Positions 33,427 to 39,050 of a DNA stretch of 39,494 nt are shown piece by piece. The translations under genes and the position numbers were made by a program. The notes beneath the pieces were generated by a model, which saw nothing but the letters and a program-made list of their open reading frames with translations, did no database searches and had not been told where the DNA came from. Every line of letters begins with the position of its first letter. The stretch's first letter is position 1. The DNA is from an uncultured Bacteroidota bacterium (GTDB lineage Bacteria; Bacteroidota; Bacteroidia; Chitinophagales; LD1): positions 1 to 39,494 of the forward strand of contig CAIXBT010000154.1 of assembly GCA_903917755.1 (NCBI GenBank). Direction: 5' to 3'.

Positions 33427-34833
33427 ATGAAGATAAGCAGTGCCATTTTGTTGATGATTTTATTCCATATAAATGGAAATGCAAAAGTGGTGAGCCCTGA
33501 CACGGCGCAGATGGTAGCTATCAATTTCTATCAGACTGCCACCAATTCCCATTCTCCTCTCACAGCCACTCTTAATTTCACACAAAGCGAAAACGATGGC
33601 AACATCGATTTTTATGTTTTCGATATTGATAATGGCTTCGTGATCGTCTCGGCCACAGACCAAGTGACACCGGTATTGGCTTATTCCACAGAAACAAATT
33701 TCAGAGCGGACTATCCAGAGATCGGCATCAGTAGCTGGATCAAACATACAGCAGCAGGCATTCATCAGGCAGCGCTTCAGAATATTTCTGCTGCACAGGT
33801 TTCTGCTGCATGGTCTGTCTATCTCAGCGGGCAGCAGCCGGTACTAAGAAACAGCATCGTCAGCCCCATGCTCACGACTACCTGGGCGCAATCGCCCTTT
33901 TACAATTCCATGTGCCCATACGACAGCGCAAATCACGGCAGGTCTGTGACAGGATGTGTGGCTACAGCTATGGCACAGATCATGAAGTTCTGGTCATATC
34001 CTGCACAGGGCATTGGCTCCTACAGTTATGTTGATTCGCAGCATGCTGGCTATAGCTATAATATCGGCAGACTCAATGCAGATTTCGGGGCTACATCGTA
34101 TCTCTGGTCTCAAATGCCGCTCTCACTCACAGATGATAATGCACCCATTGCTACGCTCATGTATCAATGTGGTGTGAGTATGGCCATGAATTACAGTGCG
34201 CATGGTAGTGCCGCATATCTGGCATATCCCGGTCACCCATCTGCGCTGAATTCTTTCACAAGCTATTTCGGTTATGATGCACATACCATCAAATATGTAC
34301 AGAAGACCGACTACACTCCTGTGGCATGGCAATCTATGATCGAAAATGAACTGATGCTGGGTCGCCCTGTTTTATATTCCGGGCAGGACACAGGCAATAT
34401 CGGCGGCCACGCATGGGTTTGCGATGGTTATGATGCCACCGGGATGCTGCACATGAACTGGGGCTGGGGCGGCAGCGATAATGGATATTTTCTCACTACC
34501 GATCTCAATCCCGGTGCCGAAAACTGGGACCTGACTCAGACAGCATTGATCGGTATCCAGCCTGATCCGACCCTTGCTGCTATTACTAATGTCCCAACTG
34601 ATCCTGCTTTTAAATTATATCCGAATCCGGCAGTCAATAAGATCAATATATCAGGTACGAACAGTCCGACTGATTATATGATATTCGATCTCATGGGCCA
34701 AAGGATCTCAGCAGGACTTTTCACTGAAACAACAAACATTATTACTGTCAATGGCTGGGCACCCGGCGTATATTTCATTAAACTCCAAAGCGGCTCGCAG
34801 CAATCTACTCACAGGTTCGTTGTGGAGAGATAA
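33427..34833 (+). CDS. C10-family (streptopain-like) cysteine protease with T9SS sorting domain
   Basis: This 468-aa pre-pro-protease has a signal peptide, a pro-region of about 120 residues (including FYVFDIDNGFVIVSATDQ, typical of C10 propeptides), and a C10 peptidase domain. Catalytic Cys177 lies in VTGCVATAMAQIM and His328 in GGHAWVCDGY, with the NWGWGG segment following. The family includes streptopain SpeB and interpain A. The C-terminal 75 residues, with KLYPNPAVNKINISG, IFDLMGQRI and GVYFIKLQS, are a T9SS type A sorting domain, so the protease is exported across the outer membrane. It probably matures by removal of the pro-region. It is 73 bp upstream of the sigma-factor gene; a regulatory link is possible but unproven. 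Confidence 0.92.
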   Translation: MKISSAILLMILFHINGNAKVVSPDTAQMVAINFYQTATNSHSPLTATLNFTQSENDGNIDFYVFDIDNGFVIVSATDQVTPVLAYSTETNFRADYPEIGISSWIKHTAAGIHQAALQNISAAQVSAAWSVYLSGQQPVLRNSIVSPMLTTTWAQSPFYNSMCPYDSANHGRSVTGCVATAMAQIMKFWSYPAQGIGSYSYVDSQHAGYSYNIGRLNADFGATSYLWSQMPLSLTDDNAPIATLMYQCGVSMAMNYSAHGSAAYLAYPGHPSALNSFTSYFGYDAHTIKYVQKTDYTPVAWQSMIENELMLGRPVLYSGQDTGNIGGHAWVCDGYDATGMLHMNWGWGGSDNGYFLTTDLNPGAENWDLTQTALIGIQPDPTLAAITNVPTDPAFKLYPNPAVNKINISGTNSPTDYMIFDLMGQRISAGLFTETTNIITVNGWAPGVYFIKLQSGSQQSTHRFVVER

Positions 34834-34905: not shown

Positions 34906-35508
34906 GTGGCAGAAGAAAAAGGACTAGATCTGGAACCCGAAAAATGGATAGAACGATACTCCGACTATCTGTATAGTTTCGCCTATGCCCGTCTGCGCAA
35001 AGAGGAAGTGGCGGAGGATCTGGTGCAGGATACATTTTTCTCAGCACTCAGGGCGCGCGATACTTTCCTCCACAATGCCTCTGAAAAAACCTGGCTCATC
35101 TCCATTCTCAAAAGAAAAATAATCGATCACTATCGCAAGAAATCCACTCAGAACGAGCTGAATATTTTTGATAAACCGGTGCAGGGAGCAGATGGCACGA
35201 GAGATCATTTCTTTGAAGAAACCACGATGAGTTCCGGCCATTGGACTGACACTGCATCTCCGAAGATCTGGAAAAAAGACTTTGAAACATCTGTTGATAG
35301 CGATGAATTTTATGCAATTTTGAAGAAGTGTTTGACCAAACTGCCCGAAAAAACAGCTGCGGCTTTCACCCTCAGAAATATGGAAGATCTGGATACGGAA
35401 GAAATTTGTAAAGAATTGCAGATCACCCCGTCTAACTTTTGGGTAATGATGCACAGGGCAAAACTGATGCTGAGAGAATGTCTGGAGAAAAACTGGTTCA
35501 CTGAATAA
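34906..35508 (+). CDS. ECF-type sigma-70 family RNA polymerase sigma factor
   Basis: This 200-aa protein has sigma region 2 (residues about 10-85, with YSFAYARLRKEEVAEDLVQDTFFSAL and the TWLISILKRKIIDHYRKK helix) and region 4 (about 145-195, with LPEKTAAAFTLRNMEDLDTEEICKEL and a helix-turn-helix ending in MMHRAKLMLRECL). The linker between them is about 60 residues, longer than in most ECF sigmas, and acidic. The start is GTG at 34906: a TAG stop immediately precedes it in frame, so no longer protein is possible, and no ATG lies upstream. The next gene starts 2 bp after its stop and encodes a likely zinc-finger anti-sigma partner. Confidence 0.9.
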   Translation: MAEEKGLDLEPEKWIERYSDYLYSFAYARLRKEEVAEDLVQDTFFSALRARDTFLHNASEKTWLISILKRKIIDHYRKKSTQNELNIFDKPVQGADGTRDHFFEETTMSSGHWTDTASPKIWKKDFETSVDSDEFYAILKKCLTKLPEKTAAAFTLRNMEDLDTEEICKELQITPSNFWVMMHRAKLMLRECLEKNWFTE

Positions 35509-35510
35509 TA

Positions 35511-35789
35511 ATGGCACTAAAGGGTAAAATAATGATGACATGCGAGCAGGCCACTGCTCTGGTCGAGAAAAAAAGAGATCAGAAACTCGATTTTTCCGAA
35601 CGGATAGGGCTATGGTTGCATATGGCCTATTGCCGTTTCTGTGCGCTGTTTGCAGAGCAGAGCAGGATCATTGACGAATGTACAAAAGCATATGCGGACA
35701 AAGCTTCTGACGAAAAAGGGATATACAAACTGGATGTGAAGCGCAAGGCGGAACTCAGCGAAGCCTTCGACGCAGAACTCAGGAAATAA
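35511..35789 (+). CDS. Small zinc-finger anti-sigma-like protein
   Basis: This 92-aa protein has the HxxxCxxC motif of zinc-finger anti-sigma (zf-HC2/ZAS) domains: His37, Cys41 and Cys44 in LHMAYCRFC, preceded by MTCEQATALVEKK with Cys11 as a possible fourth ligand. There is no transmembrane helix, so it would act in the cytoplasm. Its position, 2 bp after the sigma gene, strongly suggests translational coupling and that it binds and restrains that sigma. A second ATG at 35532 would remove seven residues and still keep the motif. The redox-sensitive type of ZAS control is possible but not shown. Confidence 0.75.
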   Translation: MALKGKIMMTCEQATALVEKKRDQKLDFSERIGLWLHMAYCRFCALFAEQSRIIDECTKAYADKASDEKGIYKLDVKRKAELSEAFDAELRK

Positions 35790-35795
35790 ATAATA

Positions 35796-35951
35796 TCAAT
35801 GTGCAGGTTTCTGCTCCTGAGGAGAGGTCAGATGAGTATGATGATGGTGATGATGGCCATGATGATGAGGTGATCTGTGAAAATGACCCATAGCACCGGC
35901 CGAGTATATGAACCCCGCGATCAGAAAGGAAACTATCAGTAATTTTTTCAT
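35796..35951 (-). CDS. Secreted His-rich micro-protein (51 aa)
   Basis: The frame reads MKKLLIVSFLIAGFIYSAGA, a textbook signal peptide, then MGHFHRSPHHHGHHHHHHTH and a short Gln/Lys/Pro tail ending in His. Fourteen of the 31 residues after the signal are His. The protein would bind zinc, nickel or copper in the periplasm. It lies 130 bp downstream of the CDF exporter gene on the same strand, and that exporter also has His-rich ends, which supports a shared metal role. Just upstream, 35963-35978, lies an AT-rich GATAATCATT-type sequence on the minus strand resembling half of a Fur/Zur-type box; this is only suggestive. It is easily missed by gene finders because of its size. Confidence 0.72.
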   Translation of the reverse strand: MKKLLIVSFLIAGFIYSAGAMGHFHRSPHHHGHHHHHHTHLTSPQEQKPAH

Positions 35952-36081
35952 CTCTATTATATTTTAATGATTATCAATAGGTGTGACCCTATAAATTTCA
36001 TAAAGTTTATCACAAAGCAAAAATTAACATCATCTATTGATGCTGATTTTCAACTAACAGCTATTTCTCTTCAGCAGAGGG

Positions 36082-37017
36082 TTAATGATGATGCACATCT
36101 TCTTCACATTCAGCAGTATCGCAGAGCTGTCCCATCTGTTCGGTCTCCAGAGTAGCATGCTGAATATTGATATGCGCCAGATCATGCCTTATCTTTTTCT
36201 TTATCTCAGATTCCCTGCCGGCAGAGGTGGCATCGTCTATCACCAGATGGGCCGTGAGTGCATTGACCGTAGTACTGATGGCCCAGATATGTATGTGATG
36301 AATATCTCTGACCCCCACCACTTTTTTGATCACCTCTCTGACCTGATCGATATCTATACCTTCAGGCACACCGTCGAGAGATAAGCGCAGACTGTCTCTC
36401 AGCAGTCGCCATGCACTGCCTACGATCACAGCCGCTACGATCAGACTGAGCACTGCATCTATCCTGAATATTCCAGTATAAAATATAATGATGCCGCCGA
36501 TCACCAGCGCCAGCGAAACCACAGCATCTGATGCGAGATGTATATAGGCAGCTCGTATATTGAGATCTTTGTCTTTCTGCCTCATGAAGAGCAAGGCTGT
36601 ACCCGTATTGATCAGGATGCCTATGCCTGCTACGATGGCTATGGTCATACCGGGCAGTGGCTCGGGATGAATGAAACGCTCCACCGCCTCATAGGCTATA
36701 GCACCGATAGATATGAGCAGCACGACTGCATTGAGCAATGCCACAAGTATAGACGTCTTGCGAAGGCCATATGTATAGCGGTCGGTCGGTTTGACATCTG
36801 CGAGACGATATGCCAGCAATGCAAGGGCCAGGGCCGCCACATCTGCCAGATTGTGACCTGCATCACTCAGCAGCGAGAGCGAATGGATAGATAGCCCCAC
36901 CACCACCTCGATGAGGACGAAAAGAAAATTGAAAATGATACCGATCACAAACGCAGTATTGACCCCGGTCAGAACCGGAGCATGATGATGATCGTGATGG
37001 TGATGGTCGTGTGCCAT
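36082..37017 (-). CDS. Cation diffusion facilitator (zinc-type CDF exporter)
   Basis: This 311-aa CDF protein has a His-rich N-terminus (MAHDHHHHDHHHAPV), six membrane helices (residues about 18-190), and a cytoplasmic metal-binding C-terminal domain. It ends in a CDTAECEEDVHHH tail. The intramembrane metal site is seen as HxxxD in TM2 (His55-Asp59, in DAGHNLAD) and HxxxD in TM5 (His160-Asp164, in HLASD). This HD-HD set is associated with zinc/cadmium selectivity. It would export zinc from the cytoplasm by proton antiport. It starts 3 bp after the bshB1 stop, so the two are translationally coupled. Confidence 0.93.
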   Translation of the reverse strand: MAHDHHHHDHHHAPVLTGVNTAFVIGIIFNFLFVLIEVVVGLSIHSLSLLSDAGHNLADVAALALALLAYRLADVKPTDRYTYGLRKTSILVALLNAVVLLISIGAIAYEAVERFIHPEPLPGMTIAIVAGIGILINTGTALLFMRQKDKDLNIRAAYIHLASDAVVSLALVIGGIIIFYTGIFRIDAVLSLIVAAVIVGSAWRLLRDSLRLSLDGVPEGIDIDQVREVIKKVVGVRDIHHIHIWAISTTVNALTAHLVIDDATSAGRESEIKKKIRHDLAHINIQHATLETEQMGQLCDTAECEEDVHHH

Positions 37018-37020
37018 TTT

Positions 37021-37737
37021 TTAGAAAATATCTTTCATGTTATAAACGCCGATCAGCCTCTTGCAGGTATATCCTTCGGCATAATTCACTCCCAGCGGCA
37101 CCCCGAAATGCGATGCACGGCTCTTGATGAACTCCAGAAAATCGGGTGAAGAAATAAAAGTCTCAGGGTCCTTTGAATCCGGATCATAAAACTGTGTCTT
37201 GTATGCCTTGATGGCCTCGATCTTCTTTTCGAAAAAAGGACTGATATCTACCGCCAGGTCAGGTGTGACATCGAGAGACTGAATATAGTGATATACGACC
37301 CTCGGGCGAAATGCCTTCTGGATCTCACCGTTCATCCGGGTCTCGATCTTAGACAAGCCACTGAGAAATACAGCATCCTCCGTCAGTTGTGCTGCACGAG
37401 CATGGTCAGGATGGCGGTCATGTATGGCATTGGTCAGTATGATATCGGGTTGATATTTTCTGATATATTTTATCAGCTCCAGCTGGTGTCCCTTGTCATT
37501 CTGAAAAAAACAATCAGCGAAACCGGCATTCTCTCTCACAGTAGCCCCGAGTATTTTTGCGGCGTTATCGGCCTCAGACTTACGTGATTCTGCCGTGCCT
37601 CTGGTGCCCATTTCACCACGGGTCAGATCGAGTATACCCACTTTGAGGCCCTGGGCTATATGAGATAGGATAGTGCCACCGCAGCTCAGTTCTATATCAT
37701 CCGGATGAGCACCAATGGCGAGGATGTCAAGCTTCAT
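37021..37737 (-). CDS. bshB1: Bacillithiol biosynthesis deacetylase BshB1
   Basis: This 238-aa PIG-L/LmbE-type zinc deacetylase has AHPDD (His11, Asp13, Asp14) near the start and HPDH (His112 at the end) in DRHPDHARAAQLTEDAVFLSGL. It matches BshB1, which removes the acetyl group from N-acetylglucosaminyl-malate to give glucosaminyl-malate, the second step of bacillithiol synthesis. Other signatures are LTRGEMGTRGT and NYAEGY near the C-terminus. Bacillithiol is the low-molecular-weight thiol of many Firmicutes and Bacteroidota and takes part in zinc buffering, which makes its coupling to the CDF exporter meaningful. bshA and bshC are not in the window. Confidence 0.93.
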   Translation of the reverse strand: MKLDILAIGAHPDDIELSCGGTILSHIAQGLKVGILDLTRGEMGTRGTAESRKSEADNAAKILGATVRENAGFADCFFQNDKGHQLELIKYIRKYQPDIILTNAIHDRHPDHARAAQLTEDAVFLSGLSKIETRMNGEIQKAFRPRVVYHYIQSLDVTPDLAVDISPFFEKKIEAIKAYKTQFYDPDSKDPETFISSPDFLEFIKSRASHFGVPLGVNYAEGYTCKRLIGVYNMKDIF

Positions 37738-37976
37738 CTATTATTAATTTTACGCGAAGATAAGCACATCTTCGACTTGCACCATTCCGAGGCTTATGTT
37801 AAAAAATAAGAGGTTATAGGATAATGGCAGCTAAAATATAGTGAATTACTCCCAAATGACAGACAGGAGTATGTTTTAGGCAAGGTCTTATATTACCTAA
37901 AATAACATGGAATCATCAGCAGCATTCCGATTTCGCTTTCTATTTTAACATTGCATGAAGAGAGTACAAAAAGATT

Positions 37977-38007
37977 TTTGCCAGCTTGTTCAGAATATCT
38001 ATATTAC
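37977..38007 (+). promoter_or_regulatory. Possible promoter of the WG-repeat gene
   Basis: TTTG at 37977-37980, a 19-bp spacer and TATATTAC at 38000-38007 (two mismatches to TAnnTTTG). The ATG is 17 bp downstream. The 287 bp between bshB1 and this gene hold nothing else recognisable. Confidence 0.3.
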
Positions 38008-38024
38008 TGAACAAATTACAAATC

Positions 38025-39050
38025 ATGGGAGGACAGAAAGAGAAGAACGGCACATATTCCCTCATACCCTATCGACGCGGAGATAAATGGGGCTATGTCA
38101 CTCCTGATCGCAAACCTGTGATCGATCCCGTCTATGATCTCCTGATCAGCAAATACTCTACCGACATCCCGCTACCTGTACGTCTATCCGAAAAATATAT
38201 TCTAGTCAGAAAAGACGGCAAGCTCGGCTTCATTGATACTGCTGGCAATGTCGTTTCTCCGTTTATCTACAAACTATCTCAATGCAAAACCGGCGGCCCT
38301 GTCTCTCCTTTTGCATACACACCTCACCTTCACGACAGCGATGGCCCGATAGCAGTACAAAAAGGTACTAAGTGGGGTTTCACTAATGAAAAGGGCGATG
38401 TACTCATACAGCCGCAATATGATGACGTGGTGAATTTCAGCGATGGTCTGGCAGCGGTCAAGATCGGCGACAAATGGGGTGCCGTCAATACTGCAGGTGA
38501 ACTGATGATTCAGGCACATTTCTGCGATCCTTTTTTCTTTGAAAATGGACTGACCATGGCACGCCATGAAAAATCGGGCAGCAGTCTGTACAATAAAAAA
38601 GGGGAAAAGCAATTCGATCTGCCGGGTTATGTATATGATACTATCGCCAAAGGTTTATATTCCTATCGAAAAAATGCTAAGTTCGGACTCATAGACAGCA
38701 AGGGCGAGATAGCCGTTCCCTGTGCCTATGACTGGATCTTCGAAGCAGATGAAATGGGCTGGATCAAGGTGCGAAAGAATGATAAGACGGGATTTATCTC
38801 TATAGACCAGCCAGTCCCCGAGGCGCTTCGCTTTCCGACTAAATTTGTGGCGATCTTTGGTTTTAGCGATGGTATCTCTCGGGTCAAAACCGACAGTATC
38901 AGCCACGCCTGGGTAGATCGTGCAGGAAACCAATTAGTACCGGGCGTATATGCTCAGGTGAATGATTTTCATGAGGGTCTGGCTGGCTATACAAACCAAA
39001 GATACGGGGTCGTGATCATCAAAGGCAGAAAAGAGATACCTCACGCCTAG
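38025..39050 (+). CDS. WG-repeat protein, ends at an in-frame TAG inside a repeat
   Basis: The 341-aa product is made of WG (beta-hairpin) repeats from end to end: GDKWGYVTPDRKPVIDPVYD, DGKLGFIDTAGNVV, GTKWGFTNEKGDVL, GDKWGAVNTAGELM, NAKFGLIDSKGEI and so on, about seven copies. There is no signal peptide, so it is probably cytoplasmic. WG repeats are found in Bacteroidota as presumed protein-interaction modules of unknown function. The frame stops at TAG 39048-39050 but continues in the same frame directly afterwards with GYMDSSGREVI, the rest of a WG unit. The full gene is therefore very probably 38025-39317, interrupted by one nonsense codon. ATG 38025 was chosen over a TTG at 37986. Confidence 0.85.
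   Translation: MGGQKEKNGTYSLIPYRRGDKWGYVTPDRKPVIDPVYDLLISKYSTDIPLPVRLSEKYILVRKDGKLGFIDTAGNVVSPFIYKLSQCKTGGPVSPFAYTPHLHDSDGPIAVQKGTKWGFTNEKGDVLIQPQYDDVVNFSDGLAAVKIGDKWGAVNTAGELMIQAHFCDPFFFENGLTMARHEKSGSSLYNKKGEKQFDLPGYVYDTIAKGLYSYRKNAKFGLIDSKGEIAVPCAYDWIFEADEMGWIKVRKNDKTGFISIDQPVPEALRFPTKFVAIFGFSDGISRVKTDSISHAWVDRAGNQLVPGVYAQVNDFHEGLAGYTNQRYGVVIIKGRKEIPHA

Follow-up and report, generated by a model that had tools for sequence, protein, structure and literature searches.

A conserved His-rich micro-protein beside a zinc exporter

A 51-aa open reading frame on the minus strand (35796..35951 of the window, by which we mean the whole 39,494-nucleotide stretch of DNA analysed) is, on codon and synteny evidence, a genuine protein-coding gene for a predicted secreted His-rich micro-protein, and we see about an even chance (roughly 0.5) that its product would be a disordered periplasmic metal sponge beside a zinc-exporting CDF pump, SilE/PcoE-like and most likely for zinc. 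An earlier note on this DNA had described three minus-strand genes in a row, and an ORF check of the window reproduced their coordinates and spacings exactly: bshB1, for the bacillithiol biosynthesis deacetylase (37021..37737), is followed after 3 bp by the CDF gene (36082..37017), and the ATG of the peptide lies 130 bp past the CDF stop codon. On its other side, 6 bp separate the peptide gene from the end of a convergent plus-strand gene for a predicted anti-sigma factor of the zinc-associated type (35511..35789), which is itself preceded on the plus strand by an ECF sigma factor gene (34906..35508). Further out, the window holds a secreted peptidase of the C10 family that carries a type IX secretion tail (33427-34833; PF01640, PF18962) and, upstream of bshB1 and divergent from it, a WG-repeat protein (37986-39050; PF14903).

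The peptide (MKKLLIVSFLIAGFIYSAGAMGHFHRSPHHHGHHHHHHTHLTSPQEQKPAH) carries 13 His in its 51 aa, all of them in the predicted 31-residue mature part, for which the note had claimed 14. Reading of the sequence predicts a signal sequence at residues 1-20 with cleavage at AxA/M (AGA/MGHFH), and from this signal-peptide-like N-terminus we infer that the peptide is exported. A signal peptide followed by a short ligand-rich mature chain can be read in the same way in the ortholog of the related genome G006 as well as here, in the genome of the window (G000), while the N-terminus of a third ortholog, in G002, is cut off. The peptide has no match in Pfam and none above cut-off in NCBIfam, and when 1.15 Mb of related DNA was scanned for other short ORFs that pair a basic, hydrophobic N-terminus with a His content of at least 30% in the remainder, none was found.

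A family search placed the G006 ortholog in a slot immediately flanked by the CDF gene and the anti-sigma gene, both of them visible; that of G002 adjoins the anti-sigma gene, and a contig end hides its CDF side. Identity to the G000 peptide is about 50% for G006 and 80% over 35 aa for G002. Between the G000 and G002 mature peptides we counted 13 synonymous differences and 6 nonsynonymous ones (pS 0.74, pN 0.08), a constraint like that on the sigma factor gene of the same two genomes (pS 0.72, pN 0.09) and tighter than that on the anti-sigma gene (pS 0.90, pN 0.23), which clearly indicates strong purifying selection on the peptide codons, even if the estimate from only 31 codons is rough and, since synonymous sites are saturated, the dN/dS ratio is not quotable as an exact value. 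Purifying selection together with synteny excludes a chance ORF. The His codons are a mix of CAT and CAC that differs between orthologs and thus do not form a trinucleotide-slippage tract, so that a triplet-repeat artefact is excluded as well. The same-slot orthologs and the codon selection bear out the proposal of the note that the micro-protein is a real, conserved and unannotated gene with a signal-peptide-like N-terminus, and codon evidence alone can support micro-proteins of this kind.

The neighbouring genes and their transcription

The CDF protein, which has His-rich ends, lies above the cut-offs of PF01545 (Cation_efflux), PF16916 (ZT_dimer) and TIGR01297, and its HD-HD transport site (H55/D59 and H160/D164) is invariant among 8 relatives, in agreement with the zinc type assigned to it earlier. 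The closest solved structures are ZnT transporters, ZnT8 being the nearest. By these profiles and motifs it is a ZnT/ZitB-type zinc exporter and an ordinary member of its family; the best equivalog, NF002923 (ZitB), is reached with only 198 bits against a cut-off of 408, and we therefore do not claim the precise name ZitB.

The identity of BshB1, also proposed in the note, is secure at 292 bits against a curated cut-off of 182.5 (TIGR04001). Since G000 also encodes BshA (556.7 bits) and BshC (356.9 bits), both over cut-off, bacillithiol synthesis is likely in this organism; G006 gave no clear matches for bshA or bshC, perhaps because of assembly gaps. Bacillithiol has been documented as a labile-zinc buffer in Bacillus subtilis (PMC5189952, citing Ma et al. 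2014; PMC4554457), and the thiol has been predicted or found in Bacteroidetes (PMC6282198). We found no demonstration in the literature of zinc buffering by bacillithiol in Bacteroidota, and in the present case, unlike in B. subtilis, it is linked to zinc by gene adjacency alone.

The sigma factor belongs to the TIGR02943 family (177 bits against a cut-off of 162.2, with synteny in agreement), and the anti-sigma factor lies above the cut-off of NF052368 and retains an HxxxCxxC motif in 7/7 genomes of the genus, the pair being convergent to bshB1-CDF genus-wide wherever the contig reaches. HxxxCxxC is the motif of ZAS proteins, which bind zinc and in some cases respond to thiol oxidation (PMC2877774), and the two genes could possibly encode a thiol/zinc stress regulator pair. 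The anti-sigma neighbour gives the locus a stronger thiol/zinc look, but convergent adjacency does not show regulation. Since comparison by eye of the sequences upstream of bshB1 and of the sigma gene showed no common motif, we do not claim control of the operon by the sigma factor.

Alignment and pattern search point to TATCTTCG (37755..37762, minus strand), which precedes bshB1 and is conserved in the five genus genomes compared, as the likely -7 element of the promoter from which bshB1 is transcribed; it resembles the -7 consensus of flavobacteria, TAnnTTTG (PMC9723704), a pattern that is itself common by chance (49 occurrences in the window where 38 are expected). A search of the 130-bp gap before the peptide gene for TAnnTTYG gave no occurrence, and no terminator-like site was found between the CDF and peptide genes. 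Transcription of the peptide gene by read-through from bshB1-CDF would thus be plausible and perhaps probable, although the length of the gap allows room for a promoter of its own.

History and distribution of the peptide

No peptide is encoded in four of the seven genus genomes (G001, G003, G004 and G005), which retain bshB1-CDF and the anti-sigma gene with a gap of only about 75-120 bp from the CDF match to the anti-sigma match; behind the latter the sigma gene follows wherever the contig reaches, that of G001 ending first. A concatenated tree unites the four in a single, fully supported clade and groups G006 with them, apart from G000 and G002. In a CDF tree that includes outside sequences, the root falls between G000 on one side and G006 together with the four on the other, at a moderate support of 80. 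This topology suggests that the ancestor of the genus had the peptide and that a single loss followed, in the clade of the four.

A three-sequence profile of the peptide yielded nothing convincing in about 390 genomes of the order and 394 of a sample of the phylum, all outside the genus. The weak matches in the family that were inspected proved to be unrelated frames or other His-rich proteins, and weak matches that turned up in the order search led no further. The conserved C-terminal pattern, LTxxEEQKPxH, occurs in 396 genomes of the order in these three genes and at one chance site, in G025, which lies inside a 706-aa protein resembling a cytochrome c assembly protein. The conservation in related genomes that the note had looked to is limited to the same slot in two genus genomes and, in the genomes searched, does not extend beyond the genus; the peptide appears to be confined to only part of one genus of uncultivated Bacteroidota, a narrow distribution that limits the generality of any conclusion.

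In regards to the wider arrangement, the note had inferred a buffer-export-capture system, with bacillithiol buffering zinc, the CDF exporting it and the peptide capturing it in the periplasm. The pairing of bshB1 with CDF and the presence of bshA and bshC in the genome are in its favour, but the pairing is specific to the genus and the peptide is absent from four genomes that retain it. While bshB1 itself is near-universal (57/60 relatives), it stands beside CDF at 4 of 80 named CDF loci, all four from the genus and 0/76 elsewhere, and none of 24 bshB1 loci outside the genus has a CDF, sigma or anti-sigma gene within 1.5 kb on either side; nor was a convincing secreted His-rich peptide seen within 3 kb of CDF at any of the 80 named loci. 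Because the adjacency is confined to the genus, the three-part system would be at most a local arrangement, and these surveys of CDF and bshB1 loci rule out a general bshB1-CDF-peptide system across Bacteroidota.

A possible periplasmic metal sponge

If the peptide is a sponge, it would be expressed by read-through from the bshB1-CDF transcript, and removal of the signal peptide would release into the periplasm a mature chain of about 31-34 residues, disordered and rich in HxH and His-cluster motifs, which, serving as a sponge or buffer near the CDF pump, would take up excess zinc (or Cu/Ni). Disorder, metal binding, the identity of the metal, cooperation with the pump and co-transcription are what we infer here from sequence features. 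The sponge is favoured by the same-slot orthologs, the codon selection, the zinc type of the CDF, the conserved element before bshB1 with no such element and no terminator-like site found in the gap, and the precedent of SilE; it is weakened by the unconserved number of His, by the room for a separate promoter, by a tail made mostly of non-ligand residues and by the clade that keeps the exporter and has no peptide.

SilE is a disordered periplasmic His-containing sponge that is encoded with an efflux system and binds Ag+ through His and Met motifs (PMC5008109). Like SilE/PcoE, the peptide is small, probably secreted and disordered, His-bearing and encoded beside metal efflux; it differs in that a His chain, about 31 residues long, is paired with a zinc-type CDF. 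Pfam and NCBIfam profiles revealed no homology to known sponge families, and by analogy we would regard it as working like SilE/PcoE, not as a member of that family. Hpn-type proteins are cytoplasmic and, unlike them, our peptide bears a predicted signal peptide. The His-rich nickel-binding proteins of Helicobacter (PMC4671568) are likewise small and His-rich, and those bind metal. The neighbouring pump shares its two Pfam domains and its HD-HD site with ZitB/ZnT-type exporters. To our knowledge none of the ZitB systems described so far includes such a peptide, and we know of little on the periplasmic handling of zinc leaving via CDF pumps, above all in Bacteroidota. With its 31 residues, its codons under selection and a zinc pump as neighbour, the peptide makes a compact and easily synthesised test object.

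The best placed of the other explanations, though unlikely, is a secreted Cu or Ni chelator whose adjacency to the CDF is incidental. Its predicted mature N-terminus, M-G-H after AGA, reads as a Cu/Ni site of the ATCUN type, and all three orthologs retain GHxH unchanged; however, the usual cleavage sites in G002 (ASA/EPMGH) and G006 (ANA/RSGH) would leave no His at position 3, so that the ATCUN site is not conserved, and the adjoining pump is of the zinc type.

Rather doubtful, too, is a reading in which the C-terminal tail is the business end, docking to a partner such as the CDF or an outer-membrane receptor, so that the peptide would be a metallochaperone or transport modulator instead of a passive sponge and the His stretch would load or tune the tail. 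Among the three orthologs the invariant columns are G22, H23, H25, P28, H31, G32, H33, H35 and H36 and, in the tail (LTSPQEQKPAH in G000), L41, T42, E46, Q47, K48, P49 and H51; LTxxEEQKPxH is the best conserved stretch and consists mostly of residues that are not metal ligands, while the number of His drops from 13 in G000 to 7 among 54 residues in G006, which argues that the function goes beyond sheer His content. The near-absence of the tail pattern from the order beyond these genes also speaks for such a role, but only three sequences are at hand and the partner is hypothetical. A more speculative combination would make the peptide a new periplasmic metallopeptide family, genus-ancestral and placed in a thiol/zinc locus with a zinc-type anti-sigma/ECF sigma pair, in which the His segment takes the zinc of the CDF and the tail docks to a partner.

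It seems improbable that the gene is free-standing and only happens to neighbour bshB1-CDF, its product serving some other purpose, for instance as an antimicrobial or matrix peptide: the 130-bp gap and the loss in one clade with bshB1-CDF intact would fit, but the gene holds the same slot in both lineages that descend from the genus root and the composition is typical of metal binding. A spurious ORF without protein product is scarcely credible, since the orthologs and above all the codon evidence speak strongly against what its short length and lack of a family match might suggest.

Other small His-rich proteins

A second small His-rich protein, of about 114 aa and with a hydrophobic N-terminus, is present in 7/7 genus genomes (G000:C151:4692-5024, L161; L043:1474-1818, the latter copy with EAHDHSCDHHIHSTDKEDDCNIC; orthologs L156-L162), and a TonB-dependent-receptor-like gene is found close to it in G003, G004 and G005. 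G006 also has a small lipoprotein-like ORF (L044:1483-1653, G006:C101) that is not an ortholog of the peptide and ends in a His-rich tail, CAKKVVIESDHRHPHIHHRHPHERP.
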